A DNA stretch of 42,792 nucleotides, taken from Hydrogenimonas thermophila. GTDB lineage: Bacteria; Campylobacterota; Campylobacteria; Campylobacterales; Hydrogenimonadaceae. Made by a program: the position numbers and the translations under genes. The stretch is from the NCBI RefSeq assembly GCF_900115615.1, contig NZ_FOXB01000018.1, positions 1 through 42,792 of the forward strand, given 5' to 3'. Positions 32,921 to 42,444 of the stretch are shown here, piece after piece (position 1 is the stretch's first letter; each line of letters starts with the position of its first letter). Below the pieces are notes generated by a model. The model made no database searches and was not told where the DNA came from. It worked only from the letters and a program-made list of their open reading frames with translations.

Positions 32921-33466
32921 CTATGCAGTAGCGGCAGTAGGAGAGCCGTATTCGTAAATAATATCTTCTAGTTTTTTACCTGATCTTTTTTTAGTAGCTT
33001 CAATTCCTACACTCTCAAGTTCTTTTAGCACAGCTTCAATAAACCCATAAAATTTCTCTTTAATCTCATTTGTCATATCTATCTCAACACTCTCTATATC
33101 TTTAGGAACAATGCCTATGACATTTACCTCTGCCATAGATTCAAGCATTGAACAGATTTCAAGCATTTCAACAACTTCAACTTCATGTGCTGTCTGATGA
33201 TAGCTGCCAAGACCCATCAAGGCATCTGAAGGAAGGTTGTATACAGAACCTGCTTCATCTTTAATGGAGACAGTATCGAGTATTATGACTTTATCATAAC
33301 TTTGGTAGTATGTCATCAGTTTAAACCCAAGCGTTCCACCGTCGATGATATCGACGGTGGTTGAGAAGTCATAATTCTCTTTCAAATATTTTGCTGCATA
33401 AATTCCAACACCTTCATCTTTAAAAAGTATATTCCCTATGCCAATGACTATTGTCTTTTTCTTCAT
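32921..33466 (-). CDS. hydD: [NiFe]-hydrogenase maturation protease
   Basis: Endopeptidase that removes the C-terminal tail of the hydrogenase large subunit after Ni insertion. The 181-residue protein starts with the HybD/HycI-family GIGNILFKDEGVG (nickel-sensing Glu/Asp), has ILDTVS, and a conserved His in YHQTAHEVE. It is last in the operon, 10 bp after the large subunit. The symbol follows Wolinella/Campylobacter usage. Confidence 0.92.
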   Translation of the reverse strand: MKKKTIVIGIGNILFKDEGVGIYAAKYLKENYDFSTTVDIIDGGTLGFKLMTYYQSYDKVIILDTVSIKDEAGSVYNLPSDALMGLGSYHQTAHEVEVVEMLEICSMLESMAEVNVIGIVPKDIESVEIDMTNEIKEKFYGFIEAVLKELESVGIEATKKRSGKKLEDIIYEYGSPTAATA

Positions 33467-33476
33467 ACTTCTTCCT

Positions 33477-35207
33477 TTATATTGAGCAGCTTGTATTTAC
33501 TTTATATACTCCCAGCTCTTTTCCTTTTGTATCGACAATATGTACAGCACAAGCAATACAAGGGTCAAAACTATGAACAGTTCTAAGAATCTCAAGCGGC
33601 TGATCTGGATCTGAAACTTTTAAACCTATGAGACTCTCTTCATAAGCCCCTTTTCTCTCTTTGTAGTCACGCGGAGCTGCATTCCATGTAGATGGAACAA
33701 CTGCCTGATAGTTAGCAACTTTACCGTTTTGAATTCTAACCCAATGCCCCAATGCACCGCGAGGTGCCTCTTCTATGCCATACCCTCTGGCATTTTGGCT
33801 AACTCTATTAAAATCAAACGGTGTAGTTGTTTTAATATCTCCAGATGCTACATTTGCTGAAAGCTCATCGATCCAATCAACCATAACATCTGCCAATAAC
33901 TCTGTCTCTATTGCACGTGCTGCCGTACGTCCTACAGAAGAGAATAGTGCTTCAGTAGGCAAGCCAGAATTTGTAAGAAATTTCGTTACATAGTCACTAA
34001 TGAGAGCATCTCCTCTTGCCATTCCAACAGCCATTCGTGCAAGCGGTCCTACCTCAACACGAGTATCATCATAAAGTGGCGATTTGATCCAACTGTATTT
34101 GCCTGCCGTATCAAGATAAGCTATTCCATTCTCTTTGCGCCCAAAACCTGTATAGTTTGGTTCAGTCACTCCATCATACGGGTGAAGATTACTACTTCCA
34201 CTATACCAAGCGTGAGTAACATCTTCAGTCACTTTTGATGGATCAAAATCGATCGCACTTGAGAGATCACCATTCAACACCAACCCGCCAGGGAAAAGCA
34301 TCTCTCCATTGTACATAGGGTTATCATCTAGTCTAAATCCACCATAAACAAGAAAGTTTTTCAACCCTGCTCCAACTCCAGCACGAGCTTCATCAGCATA
34401 TGCCGAGCTTATCATATAAATATCAGGTAAATATGCCTGCTTAATGAACCTTCTAAACTCCAGATGCAAGTCTTTAAATAACGCTCTTCGTGCCGAACTT
34501 TTAATATCATCAACACAAGTAACACCACCTACAACAATGCTTTGAGGATGCGGATCTTTTCCTCCAAATATTGCTATCATTTTTGAGACATTACGCTGTA
34601 AATCAAGTGCTTGAAGATAGTGTGTAATGCCTATTAGGTTCTGTTCTGGAGTTAATTTATAGCTTTTATTTCCCCAGTATCCATTTCCGAAAATTCCCAG
34701 TCGTCCCTGATTTACAAATGTCCTTACACGCTCTTGAACATTGGCAAACTCAGTAGCTGAATCTGTCCAAGGTGTCTCTCCTAAAACAGATGCCCACTTT
34801 TTAGCCTCTGCTGCAGCTTTTTGAGGATCAGCATTTAAAGCAGATGTAATGTCAATCCAATCAAGTGAATGCAAATGATAAAAGTGAACAAGATGGTCAT
34901 GCAAAAATAGTGCACCCTGCATAAGGTTTCTGACAATACGTGCATTTTTTGGAATTGTAATTCCAAATGCATGCTCAACAGCCTCTATACTGCGCTGATA
35001 GTGAGTAACAGTACAAACCCCACAGATACGCATAGCTAAAAGACCGCAATCTCTAGGGTCACGCCCTTTAAGAATTGTCTCTATTCCTCGAAACATTGTA
35101 GATGAGCTGAAGGCATCAACAATTGTATTGTTATCGTCAATGACAGCTTCTATGCGAAGGTGTCCTTCTATTCTTGTTATTGGATCTATTACTATATGTT
35201 TAGCCAT
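33477..35207 (-). CDS. hydB: [NiFe]-hydrogenase large subunit
   Basis: Catalytic subunit with the Ni-Fe(CN)2CO site, exported to the periplasm with the small subunit. The 576-residue protein has the L1 motif RGIE...RICGVCTVTH (Cys62, Cys65) and the L2 motif DPCIACAVH (Cys550, Cys553, His556), giving all four metal ligands. Residues 557-576 form the tail expected to be cut after His556 by the protease encoded next. It overlaps the small-subunit stop by 1 bp. It fits group 1 uptake hydrogenases; finer grouping needs a tree. Confidence 0.97.
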   Translation of the reverse strand: MAKHIVIDPITRIEGHLRIEAVIDDNNTIVDAFSSSTMFRGIETILKGRDPRDCGLLAMRICGVCTVTHYQRSIEAVEHAFGITIPKNARIVRNLMQGALFLHDHLVHFYHLHSLDWIDITSALNADPQKAAAEAKKWASVLGETPWTDSATEFANVQERVRTFVNQGRLGIFGNGYWGNKSYKLTPEQNLIGITHYLQALDLQRNVSKMIAIFGGKDPHPQSIVVGGVTCVDDIKSSARRALFKDLHLEFRRFIKQAYLPDIYMISSAYADEARAGVGAGLKNFLVYGGFRLDDNPMYNGEMLFPGGLVLNGDLSSAIDFDPSKVTEDVTHAWYSGSSNLHPYDGVTEPNYTGFGRKENGIAYLDTAGKYSWIKSPLYDDTRVEVGPLARMAVGMARGDALISDYVTKFLTNSGLPTEALFSSVGRTAARAIETELLADVMVDWIDELSANVASGDIKTTTPFDFNRVSQNARGYGIEEAPRGALGHWVRIQNGKVANYQAVVPSTWNAAPRDYKERKGAYEESLIGLKVSDPDQPLEILRTVHSFDPCIACAVHIVDTKGKELGVYKVNTSCSI

Positions 35208-36445
35208 TACGCTTCCCCCTTATCAGCTCTCTTTTTTTCCAATGCCGTTGCAGCAGCATAAATACCGGCACCTATTTCAGTTGCAGCGACTACTCCAAAA
35301 CTTGATCTATCTATTTTTGTGTCAATACTGTTTGATGCAACTACTATAGTTGTATCATCTATAGGTCTCTCAAACGCATATTTGTCCCAAAAGTCAGGCT
35401 CTGAACATCCAATACATCCACGACCTGCACCTATTGGCCAGTTAACACCGTCGTTGTAGCGTACAATTCCACAGTTATTGAAAGTCATTGGTCCTTTACA
35501 ACCCATTTTATAGAGACAGAAGTTGTTTTTTGCTCCTGCATCTCCCCACTCTTCTACAAACTCACCTGCATCAAAGTGAACACGTCGCTCACAAGTGTCA
35601 TGTATGCGATATCCAAATGCAAACTTAGGTCGAAGAAGAGAGTCTAGTTCAGGAAGCTCTCCTGTTAGAACATAGTGTAAAATCACTCCAACCATATTTG
35701 CAGGGTTTGCAGGACATGCCGGAATATTGATAATAGGCTTGCCTGAGACAATATCCATTACCCCTTTTGCTCCGGTTGGATTTGGTGCTGCTGCAGGGAC
35801 TCCGCCAAATGTTGCACAGCTTCCGACAGCAACAACTGCCGCAGCATCAGCAGATAAGCGTTTCAAATGCTCTTCAAATGTCTCTCCACTAGCTCCAATC
35901 GTTCCATAATACCCGCCAATTGCCGTAGGAATTGAACCTTCAACAAACAGAAGATACCTTCCTTTAAATGTATTGATAGCATCTTGCATCTGTGCTTCAG
36001 CCTGATGTCCGGCTGCTGCCATTAAAGTTTCGTGAAACTCCAAACTGATAATCTCTAAAATAATCTCATCCACTTTTGGTTTTTCACTTCTAAGCAAAGC
36101 TTCGCTGTTTCCAGCACAATCTTGCAACTCTATCCAGATAACAGGTACACGGTTCATAACTTCAGCAGCTTCTGCTACCAAAGGTTCAAAAAAGCTAGGC
36201 AACATAAGCATTGCTGTTGTTGCGCTTACCCATTTCAAAAAATCGCGCCGATCACACCCCTCTGCAGACAAGACATCTTGCAGTTGAGCTTTATTACCGC
36301 CAAACGGCTCTATGTTTTTGAGATTTTCTATTCTTTGTTTACACTGTTCATAAAGTTTTTGGTAGTAAGTATCACCTTTATTTGTATCTACTCTTGAACT
36401 TTTTGCAGTAAAAAGTTTTTGAACAGCATCTTTTTTATCGATCAT
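35207..36445 (-). CDS. hydA: [NiFe]-hydrogenase small subunit, Tat-exported
   Basis: Electron-transfer subunit with three FeS clusters. The ATG at 36445 is chosen because GGGGAGG lies 7 bases upstream; the frame extends to a TTG at 36481 that would overlap the cytochrome gene. In 412 residues, a long polar N-region (1-65) precedes the Tat motif RRDFLKW (66-72) and cleavage near 93. Medial and distal ligands are all present (His282, Cys285, Cys310, Cys316, Cys325, Cys344, Cys347). At the proximal site Cys110, Cys210 and Cys244 are present, but the fourth position is Asn113 (CAGN instead of CxxC). A hydrophobic segment at about 383-401 may be a membrane tail. Confidence 0.95.
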   Translation of the reverse strand: MIDKKDAVQKLFTAKSSRVDTNKGDTYYQKLYEQCKQRIENLKNIEPFGGNKAQLQDVLSAEGCDRRDFLKWVSATTAMLMLPSFFEPLVAEAAEVMNRVPVIWIELQDCAGNSEALLRSEKPKVDEIILEIISLEFHETLMAAAGHQAEAQMQDAINTFKGRYLLFVEGSIPTAIGGYYGTIGASGETFEEHLKRLSADAAAVVAVGSCATFGGVPAAAPNPTGAKGVMDIVSGKPIINIPACPANPANMVGVILHYVLTGELPELDSLLRPKFAFGYRIHDTCERRVHFDAGEFVEEWGDAGAKNNFCLYKMGCKGPMTFNNCGIVRYNDGVNWPIGAGRGCIGCSEPDFWDKYAFERPIDDTTIVVASNSIDTKIDRSSFGVVAATEIGAGIYAAATALEKKRADKGEA

Positions 36446-36470
36446 AGTTTCATCCTCCCCAAATAATCTC

Positions 36471-37940
36471 TTAGTCATCAATACCTGGTTTTAGATCCCA
36501 TTTTGTATTTGTATGACAATCAAAACAGCTTACTTGTTCACCTGCTCTATAACTTACGATTCCAAAAGATAGAGATGACTGCGTTTTAGACATCTTAGTT
36601 CCTTGATAATCATATCCGTGGCAGAGCTTGCAATCTTTTGCTCCTCCATCTTCTGCAAATTTGTCATGATCGTCAATCCACTTTTTACCTCTTGAGTGCA
36701 TAATTTGGCTTCCAAATCTTGGAGTTATATTAAATCCTGGATGACAGGTTATGCAGCTTCTCATATTGACTTTGTAAGGGTCAACTATTTCTGTATGAAC
36801 TGCGTGAAGAGCATTTGTAAGAACAGGAATACCTTTAATACCACTACCTGAAACAGCATTTACTTTATGACAGTCTGTACATCGAACAGTAGTGTTTCTA
36901 GCAGATGCTTCTAAGCCTGCTGAATCATAATTAGTTAAATTTCCAATATTGTTTCTAACTGCATTTGGATGCTTTTGATCGTGCAATCTCAAGATATTGA
37001 TTTTAAAATCACTCTCTGCATCTGCAAGATTAGCCCAACCTTTTGATGGTCTTGCATTTTCAAAACTGTTTGAAGCATGACAAACTTTACAGTTTCTCTC
37101 ATCACTTTTATATAGAGTTATTGGATGTTCTAGAGTAGTACTGCCATCTGTTGCTGTAATTTTAAAGGCAGGGTAAATCTCCGTACTGTCTTTAAAAGTC
37201 ACAGGCAAACAATCTCCACTAAACTCTTTTCTCATTCCACCCATACTCATATGAGAAGAGTTGGATCTGTTAGACAACTGCTCAATAGATACGCTAAAGC
37301 TTGAATGATCAACCGGCTTTAAAGTTCCATGATCAAACACCCTGACTTTAACACTGTTCATCGGAGGATACAAAGAGAATACTCTCGCATTTGAACAGCT
37401 GCTTTGAGATACTCTTTTTACAGAGAGTATGAGATTTCTTAATGTATTTCTCTGAATGGAAATAGTCATATTGCCTGTATTTGTCTGTACAGTTGCACTA
37501 CTGGTATTTGTAGTTGTACTGGTGTTCACAGTTGTAACTGTATTTGTATTACTTGAGCTACTGCTGCTACTTGTATTGACAACAGGCTCACTACTTACAT
37601 TTGTTGCACTATTTACTGTATTGTTTGTATAAACAGTTTCATTAGAGCTAGAATAACTGCTGTTTACATTATTGGTTTCAACAAAGTTACTGTCCATATT
37701 TTCAGAAGAGTTTTTTTCTTCAGATTTTTTGTCTTCGGACTTTTTGTCTTTAGACTCTTCATCATCAGAATCATCCTCTTTATCTTTTGATTCATTATTT
37801 TCCAGATTTTCAGAATCAACATTTATTTTGTAAGATTCAAGGTTAGTGCTTGTTGTAGTATCACTCTTTGCACTACTCTCAGAACCACACCCACTTAGCA
37901 ATAACATGGCAATAAGACTAGTCAGGTAGATTAATCTCAT
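36471..37940 (-). CDS. pentaheme c-type cytochrome lipoprotein
   Basis: A 489-residue lipoprotein with lipobox LLSGC (Cys18). Residues 20-160 are low-complexity: an Asp/Glu/Lys/Ser block, then Ser/Asn/Thr/Val repeats, probably a flexible tether. A beta-type domain follows (about 160-275), then five CxxCH heme sites at Cys284, Cys354, Cys396, Cys437 and Cys472, with extra His residues available as distal ligands. The overall plan resembles membrane-anchored multiheme cytochromes such as OmcA/MtrC-type proteins, though smaller. It is first in the hydrogenase operon, 25 bp before the small subunit, and is the likely electron partner (inference). AAAGGAG precedes the ATG. Confidence 0.85.
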   Translation of the reverse strand: MRLIYLTSLIAMLLLSGCGSESSAKSDTTTSTNLESYKINVDSENLENNESKDKEDDSDDEESKDKKSEDKKSEEKNSSENMDSNFVETNNVNSSYSSSNETVYTNNTVNSATNVSSEPVVNTSSSSSSSNTNTVTTVNTSTTTNTSSATVQTNTGNMTISIQRNTLRNLILSVKRVSQSSCSNARVFSLYPPMNSVKVRVFDHGTLKPVDHSSFSVSIEQLSNRSNSSHMSMGGMRKEFSGDCLPVTFKDSTEIYPAFKITATDGSTTLEHPITLYKSDERNCKVCHASNSFENARPSKGWANLADAESDFKINILRLHDQKHPNAVRNNIGNLTNYDSAGLEASARNTTVRCTDCHKVNAVSGSGIKGIPVLTNALHAVHTEIVDPYKVNMRSCITCHPGFNITPRFGSQIMHSRGKKWIDDHDKFAEDGGAKDCKLCHGYDYQGTKMSKTQSSLSFGIVSYRAGEQVSCFDCHTNTKWDLKPGIDD

Positions 37941-38089
37941 GAATTACTCCTTTCAATACTTACCTGATTTTGAGCGGTGGGATGATAAAGGTAAAAAATG
38001 AATTTTTGATGAAAACTTATAATTTTTAGAGGTTACATTTATATAAAAACTAAAGTGAGTCTATACGAGTAAGAAGATTTGGTTTTGTG

Positions 38090-38098
38090 TGGTATAAT
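38090..38098 (+). promoter_or_regulatory. extended -10 promoter of structured RNA 1
   Basis: TGGTATAAT, preceded by TTTGGTTTTGTG. The 14-nt block TTTGGTTTTGTGTG (38078-38091) and the TATAAT recur exactly before RNA 2. The expected start lies 7-8 nt downstream, at the first base of stem P1. Confidence 0.65.
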
Positions 38099-38105
38099 TT
38101 TCGTA

Positions 38106-38194
38106 AAGAGGTGAGAGTGTGGAAATAATCCGTCGTGCCACCGGCGAGGGCTTTAAGTCGTCGATATGGAAGGGTGACGGTCTTCCCACCTCTT
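38106..38194 (+). ncRNA. structured small RNA, copy 1
   Basis: No known family recognised. The plus strand folds as: P1 38106-38113/38187-38194 (8 bp); P2 38119-38122/38138-38141 (4 bp); P4 38143-38147/38158-38162; P5 38168-38172/38182-38186. The P2 loop CCGTC (38130-38134) is complementary to GACGG (38176-38180) in the P5 loop, forming a kissing loop or pseudoknot. P5 abuts P1. The linker between P4 and P5 is GATAT. The same architecture with different bases recurs at 38418-38520. It is convergent with a decayed nuclease gene. It could instead be a DNA-level repeat, but the compensatory changes argue for RNA. Confidence 0.6.
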
Positions 38195-38335
38195 ATTTAA
38201 ACTTCCACTCTCCATAAAATAACTGAAAAAAGGGATTTTTTAAATCAGAAGCATTTATGTAGCCTGCTGTCTTGATAAGCGTTAATTCATCCCCTTTATA
38301 TTTAAACTTTGTATCTATAACTGTTTTATATCCAT
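38193..38335 (-). pseudogene. decayed PBECR-type nuclease gene (copy 1)
   Basis: The minus strand encodes IDTKFKYKGDELTLIKTAG and then YINASDLKNPFF, closely matching the C-terminus of the intact nuclease at 38495-38953, up to a TAA at 38193-38195. An ATG with the same first codons (MDIK) and similar upstream sequence as the intact gene is at 38333-38335, but it is out of frame with the conserved part, and about 300 bp of the middle is missing. This is a deletion remnant of a tandem duplicate. Confidence 0.8.
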
Positions 38336-38404
38336 AAATAGCTCTTTTTTAATTACAATTTTAACTAATTCATTTGTAAAAAATTGGAAAAGTTTGGTTT
38401 TGTG

Positions 38405-38413
38405 TGCTATAAT
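38405..38413 (+). promoter_or_regulatory. extended -10 promoter of structured RNA 2
   Basis: TGCTATAAT with the same upstream TTTGGTTTTGTGTG block (38393-38406) as RNA 1. A TTGGAA at 38384-38389 gives a possible -35 with an 18-bp spacer. The expected start is at the base of P1. Confidence 0.65.
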
Positions 38414-38417
38414 CGGT

Positions 38418-38520
38418 TATATGGAGATGTGAAAGGCGGAAAGGGTTTATCCCACCGGTATTGCCGCCGATGGTTGCGACCAGTATGAGAGGGATTACCG
38501 GCTCTCCACATCTCCATATA
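38418..38520 (+). ncRNA. structured small RNA, copy 2
   Basis: Folds as: P1 38418-38431/38507-38520 (14 bp, perfect); P2 38435-38439/38464-38468 (GGCGG/CCGCC); P3 38443-38445/38451-38453 inside the P2 loop; P4 38471-38474/38479-38482; P5 38487-38491/38502-38506. The P2-loop CCGGTA (38455-38460) is the exact complement of TACCGG (38496-38501) in the P5 loop. The linker GTAT precedes P5, and P5 abuts P1. Every element except P3 has a counterpart in copy 1 with different sequence. The 3' 26 nt are antisense to the last codons of the intact nuclease gene. Confidence 0.62.
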
Positions 38521-38953
38521 TTACTTCATAACTTTTTAAATTTGAATTTTCTATATAGCCTGCTGTTTTTATAAGCGTTATTGACTCTTTCTTTCTTTTA
38601 TATTTTGTATCTATTACAAGTTTGATAATTTTAGAGCAACTACTTTTATGCTTACAGTATAATAAATTTAATTTATCTTTTTCATTATCAAAAAAGACTG
38701 CACTTGGGTTTTTTAAAATATTAGGTATTCTTAAAATATCCTCTTCACTAAGCCCTGCTCCTCTTTGCTTTTTACTCTCTCTTGCAAGATGAGATAAACC
38801 TTTATGGTTTATATAAATCTCTTTGGTATGAATCGGCACGCCTTTTATATTTAAAAACTCAATCACCTTTTCATCTAATTCACCTACAATAACTTTATTT
38901 CTTGTAAGCTTCTTTCTTGCTTTTATCTCATCAAGCATAGATTTTATATCCAT
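38495..38953 (-). CDS. putative PBECR-type (barnase/EndoU/RelE-like) nuclease
   Basis: A 152-residue protein. Residues about 40-140 match the pattern of phage-associated barnase-EndoU-colicin-RelE-like nuclease domains: KEIYINHKGLSHLARESK, then an LRIPNILKNPSAVFFD segment, and a C-terminal IDTKYKR...ITLIKTAGYI strand pair. The N-terminus is Lys-rich. There is no signal peptide. No strong Shine-Dalgarno precedes the ATG, so expression may be low. It is divergent from pyrB and convergent with structured RNA 2, overlapping it by 26 nt. The family is assigned by eye; a toxin role is inference. Confidence 0.6.
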   Translation of the reverse strand: MDIKSMLDEIKARKKLTRNKVIVGELDEKVIEFLNIKGVPIHTKEIYINHKGLSHLARESKKQRGAGLSEEDILRIPNILKNPSAVFFDNEKDKLNLLYCKHKSSCSKIIKLVIDTKYKRKKESITLIKTAGYIENSNLKSYEVIYGDVESR

Positions 38954-39006
38954 AAATAGATCTTTTTTACTTACAATTTTACCTAACTTTTTGTTAACTT
39001 CTTTCC

Positions 39007-40885: not shown

Positions 40886-41040
40886 TTAATCATACCAAAT
40901 TTTTGAAAAATCAAACTCTATTTTGCACTTTCCTATATCAAAGGTAAATGTCTCATCTGTAGCATCAAGAGCTTTTATGTAGCGTCCTTCGTGAAGTTTA
41001 AAGACTTTTGCCAAGTTTTAATCTGGATAGACTAAAATAA
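40886..41040 (-). pseudogene. Uma2/DUF820 gene remnant, cut by IS
   Basis: The minus strand reads ILVYPD, a TAA stop, then NLAKVFKLHEGRYIKALDA and TFDIGKCKIEFDFSKIWYD, ending at 40886-40888. It aligns throughout with the C-terminus of the intact Uma2 protein at 20133-20657 (LVYPDNRKAKVYKLHDGRYIK...). The upstream two-thirds of the gene is missing because an IS982-family end begins at 41041. It is doubly inactivated (truncation and internal stop). Confidence 0.88.
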
Positions 41041-41165
41041 CGTTAGTTCGGCTTAAGCCACCACCGCCAATAGATTCCTTTCCGATTCATCTAATCGAAT
41101 AGAAGGTTTTTTTGGCTGATAGGTATAAGCAATTAATGCACTAATCCAGTTAATCATAGCATTAA
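41041..41165 (-). mobile_element. IS982-family fragment (copy A), 3' end
   Basis: Nearly identical, as reverse complement, to the last ~125 bp of the IS982-family copy at 41460-42444, including the terminal inverted repeat and the transposase C-terminus (TYQPKKPSIRLDESERNL). The first 35 bp have several mismatches; the rest is almost exact. It ends abruptly at 41165, where an IS21-type end begins. Confidence 0.88.
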
Positions 41166-41420
41166 TGTCATCTGCAATGCTAAAATACACCACAAACGCA
41201 AAAGAAAAATGTACCACTTGTAAAAGATAGAGTAAAAAATATGATAGATTTCCTCCAAATATTTGGAGGAGCTATGGATGATTACATATGAGGAGTTTGT
41301 AATGATACATACGCTTCACAAACAAGGGTACAGTATAAGAGCGATTGCAAGAATGACAGGGTTAGATAGAAGGACAATTTCAAAAAGATTAAAAGAAAAA
41401 GAGTTAATGCCAAGAAAGAG
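41166..41420 (+). mobile_element. IS21-family left end with truncated istA
   Basis: It starts TGTCATCTGC, consistent with the TG terminus of IS21 elements. Two repeats of the type AAAAT-(n)-ACCAC (near 41183 and 41206), as in IS21 multiple terminal repeats, precede the istA start. The element stops inside istA, at roughly 41410-41440, where sequence belonging to an ISAs1-type relic begins. The right end and istB are not in the window. The right boundary is approximate. Confidence 0.65.
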
Positions 41421-41445
41421 AGTGGATAACCCATTCCAACCCTAA
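41278..41445 (+). pseudogene. istA: istA (IS21 transposase) N-terminal fragment
   Basis: The ATG at 41278 gives MITYEEFVMIHTLHKQGYS and then the helix-turn-helix AIARMTGLDRRTISKRLKEK, the N-terminal DNA-binding domain of IstA. After about 45 residues the frame runs into foreign sequence (VDNPFQP) and stops at 41445. The DDE domain is missing. The palindrome CCTCCAAATATTTGGAGG (41252-41269) covers its Shine-Dalgarno region. Confidence 0.8.
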
Positions 41446-41451
41446 TATTCA

Positions 41452-41459
41452 TTTAATAA
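41452..41459 (+). repeat. target-site duplication, left copy
   Basis: TTTAATAA immediately left of IS982-family copy B; identical to 42445-42452. Confidence 0.85.
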
Positions 41460-42444
41460 CGTGAGTTCGGGATAAGAAAAGAATAAAAATTGCTTGAGCC
41501 TTCCTCAGAAGAACACCAAATACCAAGAGGAAGGCAATATGATTTTAACAAAACTTTTTGTAGAAATCGATGATTTTTATAAATCATTTGAGCCAGAGTA
41601 TCATAAAAGCCTATTGAGTGAAGGTAAAGTAAAAAGAAGACGGTCAACAACCCTAAGTAAGAGTGAGATAATGACAATAGTGGTATTTTTCCATATGTCT
41701 AAATTTAGAACATTTAAGGACTATTATATTAGATATGTTCAAAAGAGTCTTAAATCAGCCTTTCCAGCTCTTGTTTCATATCAAAGGTTTGTAGAGTTAA
41801 TGCCAAGAGTAATGGTTCCACTTTTTGCATTTATGCAACAAAGACGATTGGGACCTATAACTGGTATCTCTTTTATAGATTCAACAACTATCAAAGTATG
41901 TCATATAAAAAGAGAAAAACAAAACAGAGTATTTGCAGGATTAGCAGCTAAAGGGCGTACAACAATGGGATGGTTTTATGGTTTCAAACTTCATCTAGTC
42001 ATAAATGAAAAAGGAGAAATACTCTCTTTCTTTTTTACTCCAGGCAATAGTAGTGATCAAGATGAAAAAGTAATTGATCATCTATGAAAAAATCTTTCTG
42101 GTAAGTTATTTGGTGATAAAGGATATATCTCTCAAAAGCTATTTGAAAAACTTTGGCAGCAAGGAATCCAACTGATTACAAAAATTAGAAAAAATATGAA
42201 AAATAAATTAATACCCTTAATAGATAAACTACTACTTCGTAAAAGAGCTTTGATTGAGTCAATTAACGACCAACTTAAAAATGTTGCTATGCTAGAGCAT
42301 ACAAGACATAGAAGTCCTATTAATGCTATGATTAACTGGATTAGTGCATTAATTGCTTATACCTATCAGCCAAAAAAACCTTCTATTCGATTAGATGAAT
42401 CGGAAAGGAATCTATTGACGGTGGCAGCTTAAGCCGAATTCACG
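41460..42444 (+). mobile_element. IS982-family insertion sequence (copy B), full length
   Basis: A 985-bp element with 17-bp imperfect terminal repeats (CGTGAGTTCGGGATAAG left; CGTGAATTCGGCTTAAG right, read inward; 14 of 17 match). It is flanked by the perfect 8-bp direct repeat TTTAATAA (41452-41459 and 42445-42452). It carries one transposase gene filling most of its length. The clean target duplication shows it is the most recent insertion in this cluster. Confidence 0.9.
41539..42432 (+). pseudogene. IS982-family transposase with in-frame TGA
   Basis: The ATG at 41539, after GAGGAAGG, opens a 297-codon frame interrupted by TGA at 42085-42087. Before it: SFIDSTTIKVCHIKREKQ (first catalytic Asp), RTTMGWFYGFKLHLVIN and FFTPGNSSDQDEKVIDHL. 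After it, in the same frame: KNLSGKLFGDKGYIS (second Asp), LITKIRKNMKN, the KRALIESINDQLKN Glu helix, and HTRHRSPINAM. All DDE elements are retained, so the stop is a single point lesion or a sequencing error. Confidence 0.88.

Follow-up and report, generated by a model that had tools for sequence, protein, structure and literature searches.

The structured RNA genes described here are probably dedicated RNA immunity genes (antitoxins) for the BECR nuclease at the C-terminus of the Mu-like MuF protein. Judged by sequence, each RNA has its own promoter, is directed toward the toxin gene, ends at or within the last codons of that gene, and forms a predicted tRNA-like cloverleaf with a contact between loops 1 and 3. 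The RNA also travels with the toxin domain, even where, as happened in the window, the domain has been cut out of the phage context. The window is the whole stretch analysed here, 42,792 nucleotides from the chromosome of Hydrogenimonas thermophila (Campylobacterota), whose assembly has 92 contigs. An earlier note on this DNA proposed an RNA-nuclease system; missing from it were the MuF-type phage-head toxin system, the tRNA likeness of the RNA, and the fact that the second unit is not intact.

The window contains two promoter and RNA units, 315 bp apart, sited between a cytochrome/hydrogenase operon and pyrB (Table 1). The hydrogenase operon and IS cluster previously said to lie nearby are both present, the operon at 32921-36481 and the IS copies at about 41400-42400. 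An IS-type transposase frame with an in-frame TGA occupies 41494-42400, and partial copies of this element flank it on both sides (41040-41200 and 42330-42430). The 5' end of a 16S rRNA gene is located at the contig edge (1-75, minus strand).

Table 1. Features of the two RNA units and the nuclease genes in the window.
Feature	Position	Strand	Description
Promoter 1 of RNA1	38078..38098	+	Extended -10 TGTGGTATAAT; 21-nt copy common with promoter 2
RNA1 (type 1)	38106..38194	+	Scores 113 bits with model R1 (RNA1 is in the R1 training set); covariation; fold common to 14 RNAs
RNA1 P1	38106-38113/38187-38194	+	
RNA1 hairpin 1	38130-38134 (kissing strand)	+	Kissing strand CCGTC
RNA1 hairpin 3	38176-38180 (kissing strand)	+	Kissing strand GACGG; abuts P1; hairpin 2 in between
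PBECR3 gene remnant	38195..38345	-	Tail TVIDTKFKYKGDELTLIKTAGYINASDLKNPFFQLFYGEWKFK (stop codon following) joined to 5' stub; centre deleted
Promoter 2 of RNA2	38393..38413	+	TGTGCTATAAT
RNA2 (type 2)	38418..38520	+	14-bp P1; matched by type-1 model R1 at 5e-6
RNA2 hairpin 1	38455-38460 (kissing strand)	+	Kissing strand CCGGTA; small hairpin inserted
RNA2 hairpin 2		+	TGGT/ACCA
RNA2 hairpin 3	38496-38501 (kissing strand)	+	Kissing strand TACCGG
Intact PBECR3 nuclease gene, 152 aa	38495..38953	-	Pfam PBECR3, 5.6e-11
Intact gene start region and upstream linker	38942..38997	-	86% copy at 38324-38379 (repeat D2)

The 21-nucleotide promoter sequence TTTGGTTTTGTGTGSTATAAT occurs at both 38078 and 38393, with a chance expectation of 0.01. 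A similar convergent -10 is found upstream of the RNAs of relatives. Both window RNAs are GC-rich and, as first described, structured, folding better than expected with z values of -2.66 (RNA1) and -3.71 (RNA2). A near copy of RNA2 adjoins a MuF-PBECR3 gene in a viral contig.

The unit of promoter, RNA, and convergent PBECR-like nuclease gene had been reported as present twice in tandem. The promoter and RNA are indeed doubled, and a nuclease gene matching Pfam PBECR3 converges on RNA2, but this gene is intact only once; the second is an internally deleted remnant. The remnant is identified by tblastn (1.7e-6), by the repeats D1 and D2, and by its translation, which contains a tail of approximately 43 codons, 56% identical over the matched part. 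The unit is considered duplicated because the start region and upstream linker of the intact gene recur in the 86% copy listed in Table 1. RNA2 overlaps the last 26 or so nucleotides of the intact nuclease gene, while RNA1 ends one base ahead of the stop codon of the remnant. The arrangement reads as an older toxin that has been gutted and its RNA kept, next to a newer intact pair.

The intact window protein matches the PBECR3 profile (PF18812) at 42.8 bits, against a cut-off of 30. It is made up of the PBECR3 toxin domain plus a short piece of the MuF linker, and the N-terminal MuF part is absent. It is the C-terminal domain of a phage MuF protein, detached from the rest; the window toxin has no MuF delivery part and may be decaying. 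H55 and T130 are invariant in five close members, giving the active-site His in an N-terminal helix and the C-terminal Thr/Ser of the predicted active site. The AlphaFold model of the protein has a pLDDT of 86.6 and a pTM of 0.82. Foldseek returned no significant match to this model. With VIA-align, the top seven chains were all RelE/BrnT/HigB/colicin/CDI-type nucleases (Z of 5.3 to 3.9), and the first unrelated chain had a Z of 2.9. Entries 3ao9 (which we take to be colicin E5), 6cp9, and 7m5f are among the best structural matches, with Z of 3.9 to 4.4. Colicin E5/D and the CDI tRNases likewise have the BECR nuclease fold, and their immunities are proteins. The window protein is therefore a predicted BECR-fold ribonuclease, and the possibility first raised as a refutation, a fold unrelated to ribonucleases, is not what the model has. 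In the literature searched, PBECR appears only as a predicted RNase (PMC5512222).

The RNA is composed of a closing stem (P1) that encloses three hairpins, with complementary loops on hairpins 1 and 3. Hairpin 3 has 5 bp and, in most copies, is immediately adjacent to P1. The RNA had been called a compact pseudoknot; comparison and the helix check show no H-type pseudoknot and point to a four-arm RNA, closed by a stem, with three hairpins and kissing loops. The type-1 alignment was fitted to the nested structure only, with the kissing pairs left out of the fitting. Across the seven type-1 sequences 96.5% of pair cells are standard, and two kissing pairs have double changes. Double-changed pairs number 15, compared with 7.7 in shuffled alignments and 0-4 in slid controls. 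Hairpin 3 of L043 is paired in the R1 alignment save for one mismatch. The three type-2 sequences are too alike for covariation.

A helix check of 14 RNAs, which span Campylobacterota, Pseudomonas phage B3, Haemophilus phage SuMu, and a Mannheimia phage, found the elements in one common order in all of them and a fully complementary kissing helix in every RNA. At least seven distinct kissing sequences are represented, namely CCGTC/GACGG, CCGCT/GGCGG (one U-G pair), CCGTT/AACGG, CCGGTA/TACCGG, CTCCC/GGGAG, CGCCA/TGGCG, and CTCGA/TCGAG. The predicted topology is that of tRNA, with an acceptor, a D arm, a middle arm, a T arm stacked on the acceptor, and a D-T loop contact. The four-arm cloverleaf, the 3' strand of the T arm abutting the acceptor stem, and the contact between the loops of arms 1 and 3 are all present. 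Hairpin 2 is unlike an anticodon arm, and the tRNA likeness of the window RNAs is one of predicted topology only. Rfam left the window RNAs unmatched even at a permissive threshold, with no family above gathering. An HDV-like or twister ribozyme and an RNA-type anti-CRISPR were considered and rejected.

The convergent genes with abutting ends, and the overlap of about 26 nucleotides between RNA2 and its gene, would also suit a type I-like control, in which the RNA pairs with the 3' end of the toxin mRNA. This is very unlikely, since the overlap is 0-7 nucleotides in most units and the feature conserved, with compensatory changes, is the fold rather than any complementarity to the gene.

A protein search of 397 Campylobacteria genomes identified close PBECR3s (at least 53% identity) in three: G000, the window's own genome, G395 (62%), and G027 (54%). 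Others were more distant. In all three, the same RNA abuts and converges on the gene. R1, the covariance model built from type-1 RNAs, was run over the same 397 genomes and matched G000, G395, and G027 at E < 1e-20 and G112 at 1.9e-14. It also matches RNAs outside its training, namely RNA2 (Table 1) and the second RNA of contig L033 (5e-4). Among the borderline R1 matches across the class (G101, G104, G191, G336, and G386, E of 0.04-0.07), L038-L040 match each other, and on reading the kissing-loop core was seen in none. A second model, R2, in which the hairpin-1 pairs are offset by one column, was used as a search aid only; it still recovered types 1 and 2. The exact 19-mer core gave seven matches; four of them (L028-L031) lack the fold and number about as many as expected by chance.

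Patterns of the RNA alone were run against 2.9 million viral contigs and returned L043 and L044, each with a convergent MuF-PBECR3. Both encode a MuF-type protein of 478-493 aa with a PBECR3-like C-terminus, and the coding region stops within the RNA or at its edge. Scanning these viral contigs with a protein profile gave L043 and L044 and nothing else. The RNA-only and protein-only scans are an independent two-way confirmation of the linkage. A protein scan of the genome contigs gave no match, and tblastn of the window protein against INPHARED gave none apart from one partial plasmid match. In G000, G395, and G027, the PBECR3 stop lies 0-2 nucleotides from the RNA end or the two overlap, by up to about 26 nucleotides.

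Full-length MuF-PBECR3 relatives (478-494 aa) are found in head modules in L004, L043, and L044; L004 is a Mu-like prophage with a protein of 494 aa. L003 is a 1.1-kb phage fragment, containing a portal end, the RNA, and a MuF-PBECR3 end, between CRISPR repeats. The prophage, this fragment, and the excised domain of the window indicate that the pair originated in the head modules of phages and is able to persist elsewhere. Worth adding on L003 (31-1060 and 2190-2220) is that the toxin-RNA pair lies inside a CRISPR array with repeat ATTCCACCGAAACAACAGTTGTATTGAAAC and resembles a giant spacer; this may be an assembly error. In the window, L003, L004, L043, and L044, no small immunity ORF was found directly downstream of the toxin, and the RNA gene is there instead.

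The RNA subtype tracks the toxin subtype in these sequences. The type-2 RNA pairs with the intact window toxin and the L044 toxin, which have in common an insertion of 2 residues and a deletion of 3 relative to L003, L004, and L043. The type-1 RNA pairs with the toxins of L003, L004, and L043 and with the window remnant. The remnant lacks the 3-residue deletion, which fits type 1 at the sole indel it covers. Pairing of RNA and nuclease, as first proposed, is thus strongly supported by the Campylobacterota genomes, the viral contigs, and the matching subtypes.

Several RNAs have no toxin beside them. The G112 RNA stands alone, and L044 has a spare type-1 RNA1 located 1.8 kb from its RNA2. L033 (2460-2750, minus strand) contains three different family RNAs arranged head to tail, on a contig with a phage-like primase fragment, and PBECR3 was not found in the L033 genome. 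The RNA is not independent of the nuclease in most genomes, the outcome that would have spoken against the first reading: only one of the four RNA-bearing genomes (G112), plus the L033 array, is without detectable PBECR3. Orphan immunities occur elsewhere, and the orphan RNAs were counted in favour of the immunity role for this reason. Between the spare RNA1 and RNA2 of L044 (10944-12601) are a C5-type DNA methyltransferase gene and a likely restriction gene.

Openly tRNA-like RNAs are present in a wider set of phages. In Campylobacter and Helicobacter phages with distant MuF-PBECR3-like genes, the DNA past the stop codons contains an RNA that has tRNA arms and a promoter in convergent orientation; R1 does not match these RNAs. 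The L012 example reads ...GGCTCAGCGGTAGAGC...GCAGGTTCGATTCCTGC-CTATCTATC. The T arm is TTCGA, and the D arm is AGYGGUA in several phages. A survey was made of 43 distinct MuF/PBECR 3' ends, with shuffles and 194 other ORF ends as controls. A convergent extended -10 was found at 27 of the 43 (0.64 in shuffles, 2 of 194 other ends). A T arm of 5 bp and a 7-nucleotide loop, TTCRA or TGCRA, was found at 19 (0.29 in shuffles, 3 of 194 other ends). All 19 of these RNAs have an acceptor-like stem of 9-12 bp that starts 5-9 nucleotides past the -10 box, and in all 19 the 3' strand of this stem is located 0-2 nucleotides beyond the T arm. Testing MuF genes simply for inverted repeats gave too much noise to be relied on by itself.

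The T-arm form is present in Pasteurella phages Pmp9 and AFS-2018a and Campylobacter phage CAM-P21, and the kissing form in Pseudomonas phage B3, Haemophilus phage SuMu, and a Mannheimia phage. R1 gave no match to the B3, SuMu, or tRNA-like RNAs, so these were recognised by position and verified by the helix check. Placement of the kissing and T-arm RNAs in one family is based on equal position, orientation, and topology, without a significant sequence match.

The cloverleaf, the TTCGA T arm, and the AGYGGUA D arm of several phages could suggest a cleavage-resistant substitute tRNA that restores translation after the nuclease destroys host tRNA. This is extremely unlikely: the 7-nucleotide anticodon loop is absent, and the acceptor stem is usually 9-14 bp instead of the 7 bp of a callable tRNA. 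ARAGORN called no tRNA in 38 sources, nor in the window RNAs, and L012 scores 27.1 bits against the Rfam tRNA model, below the threshold of 29. A genuine phage tRNA was rejected on the same ARAGORN result, anticodon loop, and long acceptor stem.

Other arrangements were seen among these MuF genes. L018 (1917-2080) has two successive tRNA-like RNAs behind one MuF gene, the outer with a TGCAA T-loop. A second MuF prophage, with a PBECR2 domain, is present in the genome of the window itself (L047:2538 onward; G000:C28); after it come a promoter in convergent orientation and an RNA that looks structured but differs in shape. Convergent GC-rich RNAs without a T arm accompany most of the PBECR2-type MuF genes inspected. 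Two tiny "hypothetical protein" ORFs, B3ORF34 of Pseudomonas phage B3 (L086:2428-2526) and one in Campylobacter phage CAM-P21 (L081:2454-2546), run antisense to the RNA gene and are unlikely to be real genes.

The presence of the RNA was compared with the catalytic His of the adjacent nuclease. The His is kept and the RNA present in 10 (the window, L003, L044, L005, CAM-P21, L064, L056, Pmp9, B3, and AFS-2018a). The His is lost and the RNA absent in five (Mu, MP29, JBD93, and the B3-like CF125a and JBD18). No case has the His without the RNA, and three (SuMu, the Mannheimia phage, and L065) have the RNA and lack the His at the aligned column, so the rule is imperfect. Fisher's test gives p of 0.0065 for this hand-picked set of related phages, with kinship ignored. 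TJ1, which has the His and a structured antisense region, was excluded. The MuF C-domain of phage Mu is described as inactive in PMC5512222; the F and G genes of Mu overlap, leaving no room for the RNA. In MP29 and JBD93 the active site has been deleted and the two genes abut. In CF125a, whose domain is 46% identical to that of B3, and in JBD18 the His is changed to Pro/Ser and the genes overlap. B3 keeps the His and has the RNA within a 124-nucleotide gap. A Chromohalobacter phage with a short MuF and no toxin domain has a gap of 4 nucleotides and no RNA.

These comparisons bear on two further explanations. In one, the RNA is a regulatory or structural element of the phage (a terminator, a packaging signal, or a head-tail boundary) that merely lies between the MuF and gpG genes, and it does occupy the same slot in all Mu-like phages examined. 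We regard this as quite unlikely, because the RNA is absent both with the inactivated toxins (Mu, MP29, JBD93, CF125a, and JBD18) and with the toxin-less Chromohalobacter MuF, has moved with the toxin domain into non-phage surroundings (the window and the L003 CRISPR array), and has its own promoter. In the other, the RNA is a cofactor or guide, packaged with MuF as an RNP and injected, which activates or targets the nuclease. Tight pairing and subtype co-evolution would suit any obligate RNA-protein complex, and the absence of the RNA from phages that lost the catalytic His agrees with this as well. A cofactor is nevertheless unlikely, given that the RNA has an early-type sigma70 promoter of its own, opposed to the late head operon, and that the lone RNAs (G112, L033, and L044 RNA1) are expected of an immunity gene and odd for a cofactor.

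Under the favoured reading, RNA immunity, PBECR3 would cleave tRNA or a tRNA-like target. The RNA would mimic the tRNA elbow and acceptor, without a normal anticodon loop, and the nuclease would bind this decoy without productive cleavage and so be blocked. A lysogen that expresses the RNA constitutively would be safe from its own toxin and perhaps from the injected toxin of related phages. Cells and phages may stack RNAs of differing specificity.

The system can be compared with several that are described. MuF polymorphic toxins (Jamet 2017, PMC5576092; Bxa, PMC11699363) also have the toxin at the MuF C-terminus, in the head module, with an adjacent companion immunity gene and with orphan or multiple immunities. 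Their immunities are small proteins encoded on the same strand, whereas here the companion is a tRNA-like RNA, convergent and under a promoter of its own. The PBECR/MuF-C nucleases (Iyer 2017, PMC5512222) share PF18812, the BECR fold, the MuF fusion, and the His/Thr-Ser site, and the accessible part of that paper mentions no partner RNA or immunity. The type III systems ToxIN/CptIN/TenpIN (PMC5086642) likewise combine a ribonuclease toxin with a structured RNA that has a tertiary or pseudoknot contact. Here, however, there is no operon, shared promoter, upstream repeats, or intervening terminator, and an RNA of about 90 nucleotides with four arms is partnered with a MuF-PBECR toxin. Type III membership was rejected because the genes are convergent, the RNA has its own promoter, and it is single rather than tandemly repeated; the earlier note had drawn this distinction by the convergence and the single, non-repeated RNA. 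AbiF/RCd22 (PMC12373285) resembles the present pair in that a prophage toxic protein is neutralised by an adjacent single ncRNA. That system has an Abi_2/Cas13-like protein and other RNA motifs and was shown experimentally, whereas the present one is read from sequence alone and has PBECR3 as partner.

By its presumed logic the system is of the RNA-antitoxin kind, and it is a member of no described family. In the literature searched, mostly main texts outside subscription journals, neither RNA immunity for MuF nor tRNA-like antitoxins were found, and for MuF toxins only protein immunities were found (PMC5576092, PMC11699363). RNA immunity to a polymorphic toxin looks new. On balance we lean toward an unrecognised class of immunity, in which Mu-like phages of Campylobacterota and Gammaproteobacteria guard their lysogens against MuF-borne BECR nucleases with fast-evolving tRNA-mimic RNAs in place of immunity proteins, and in which small RNA arrays, gathered by cells or phages, serve as portable immunity against the injected nucleases of rival phages. 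If so, immunity to polymorphic toxins would not always be a protein, and natural tRNA-decoy inhibitors of BECR nucleases would exist. Whole phage lineages, among them those of the long-studied B3 and SuMu, would hold an RNA gene that has gone unnoticed in the gap following gene F, and the missing RNA of Mu, with its inactive domain, would be accounted for. The MuF C-terminal nuclease domain would be given a use, and the role of MuF nucleases on injection would become directly testable in laboratory lysogens.
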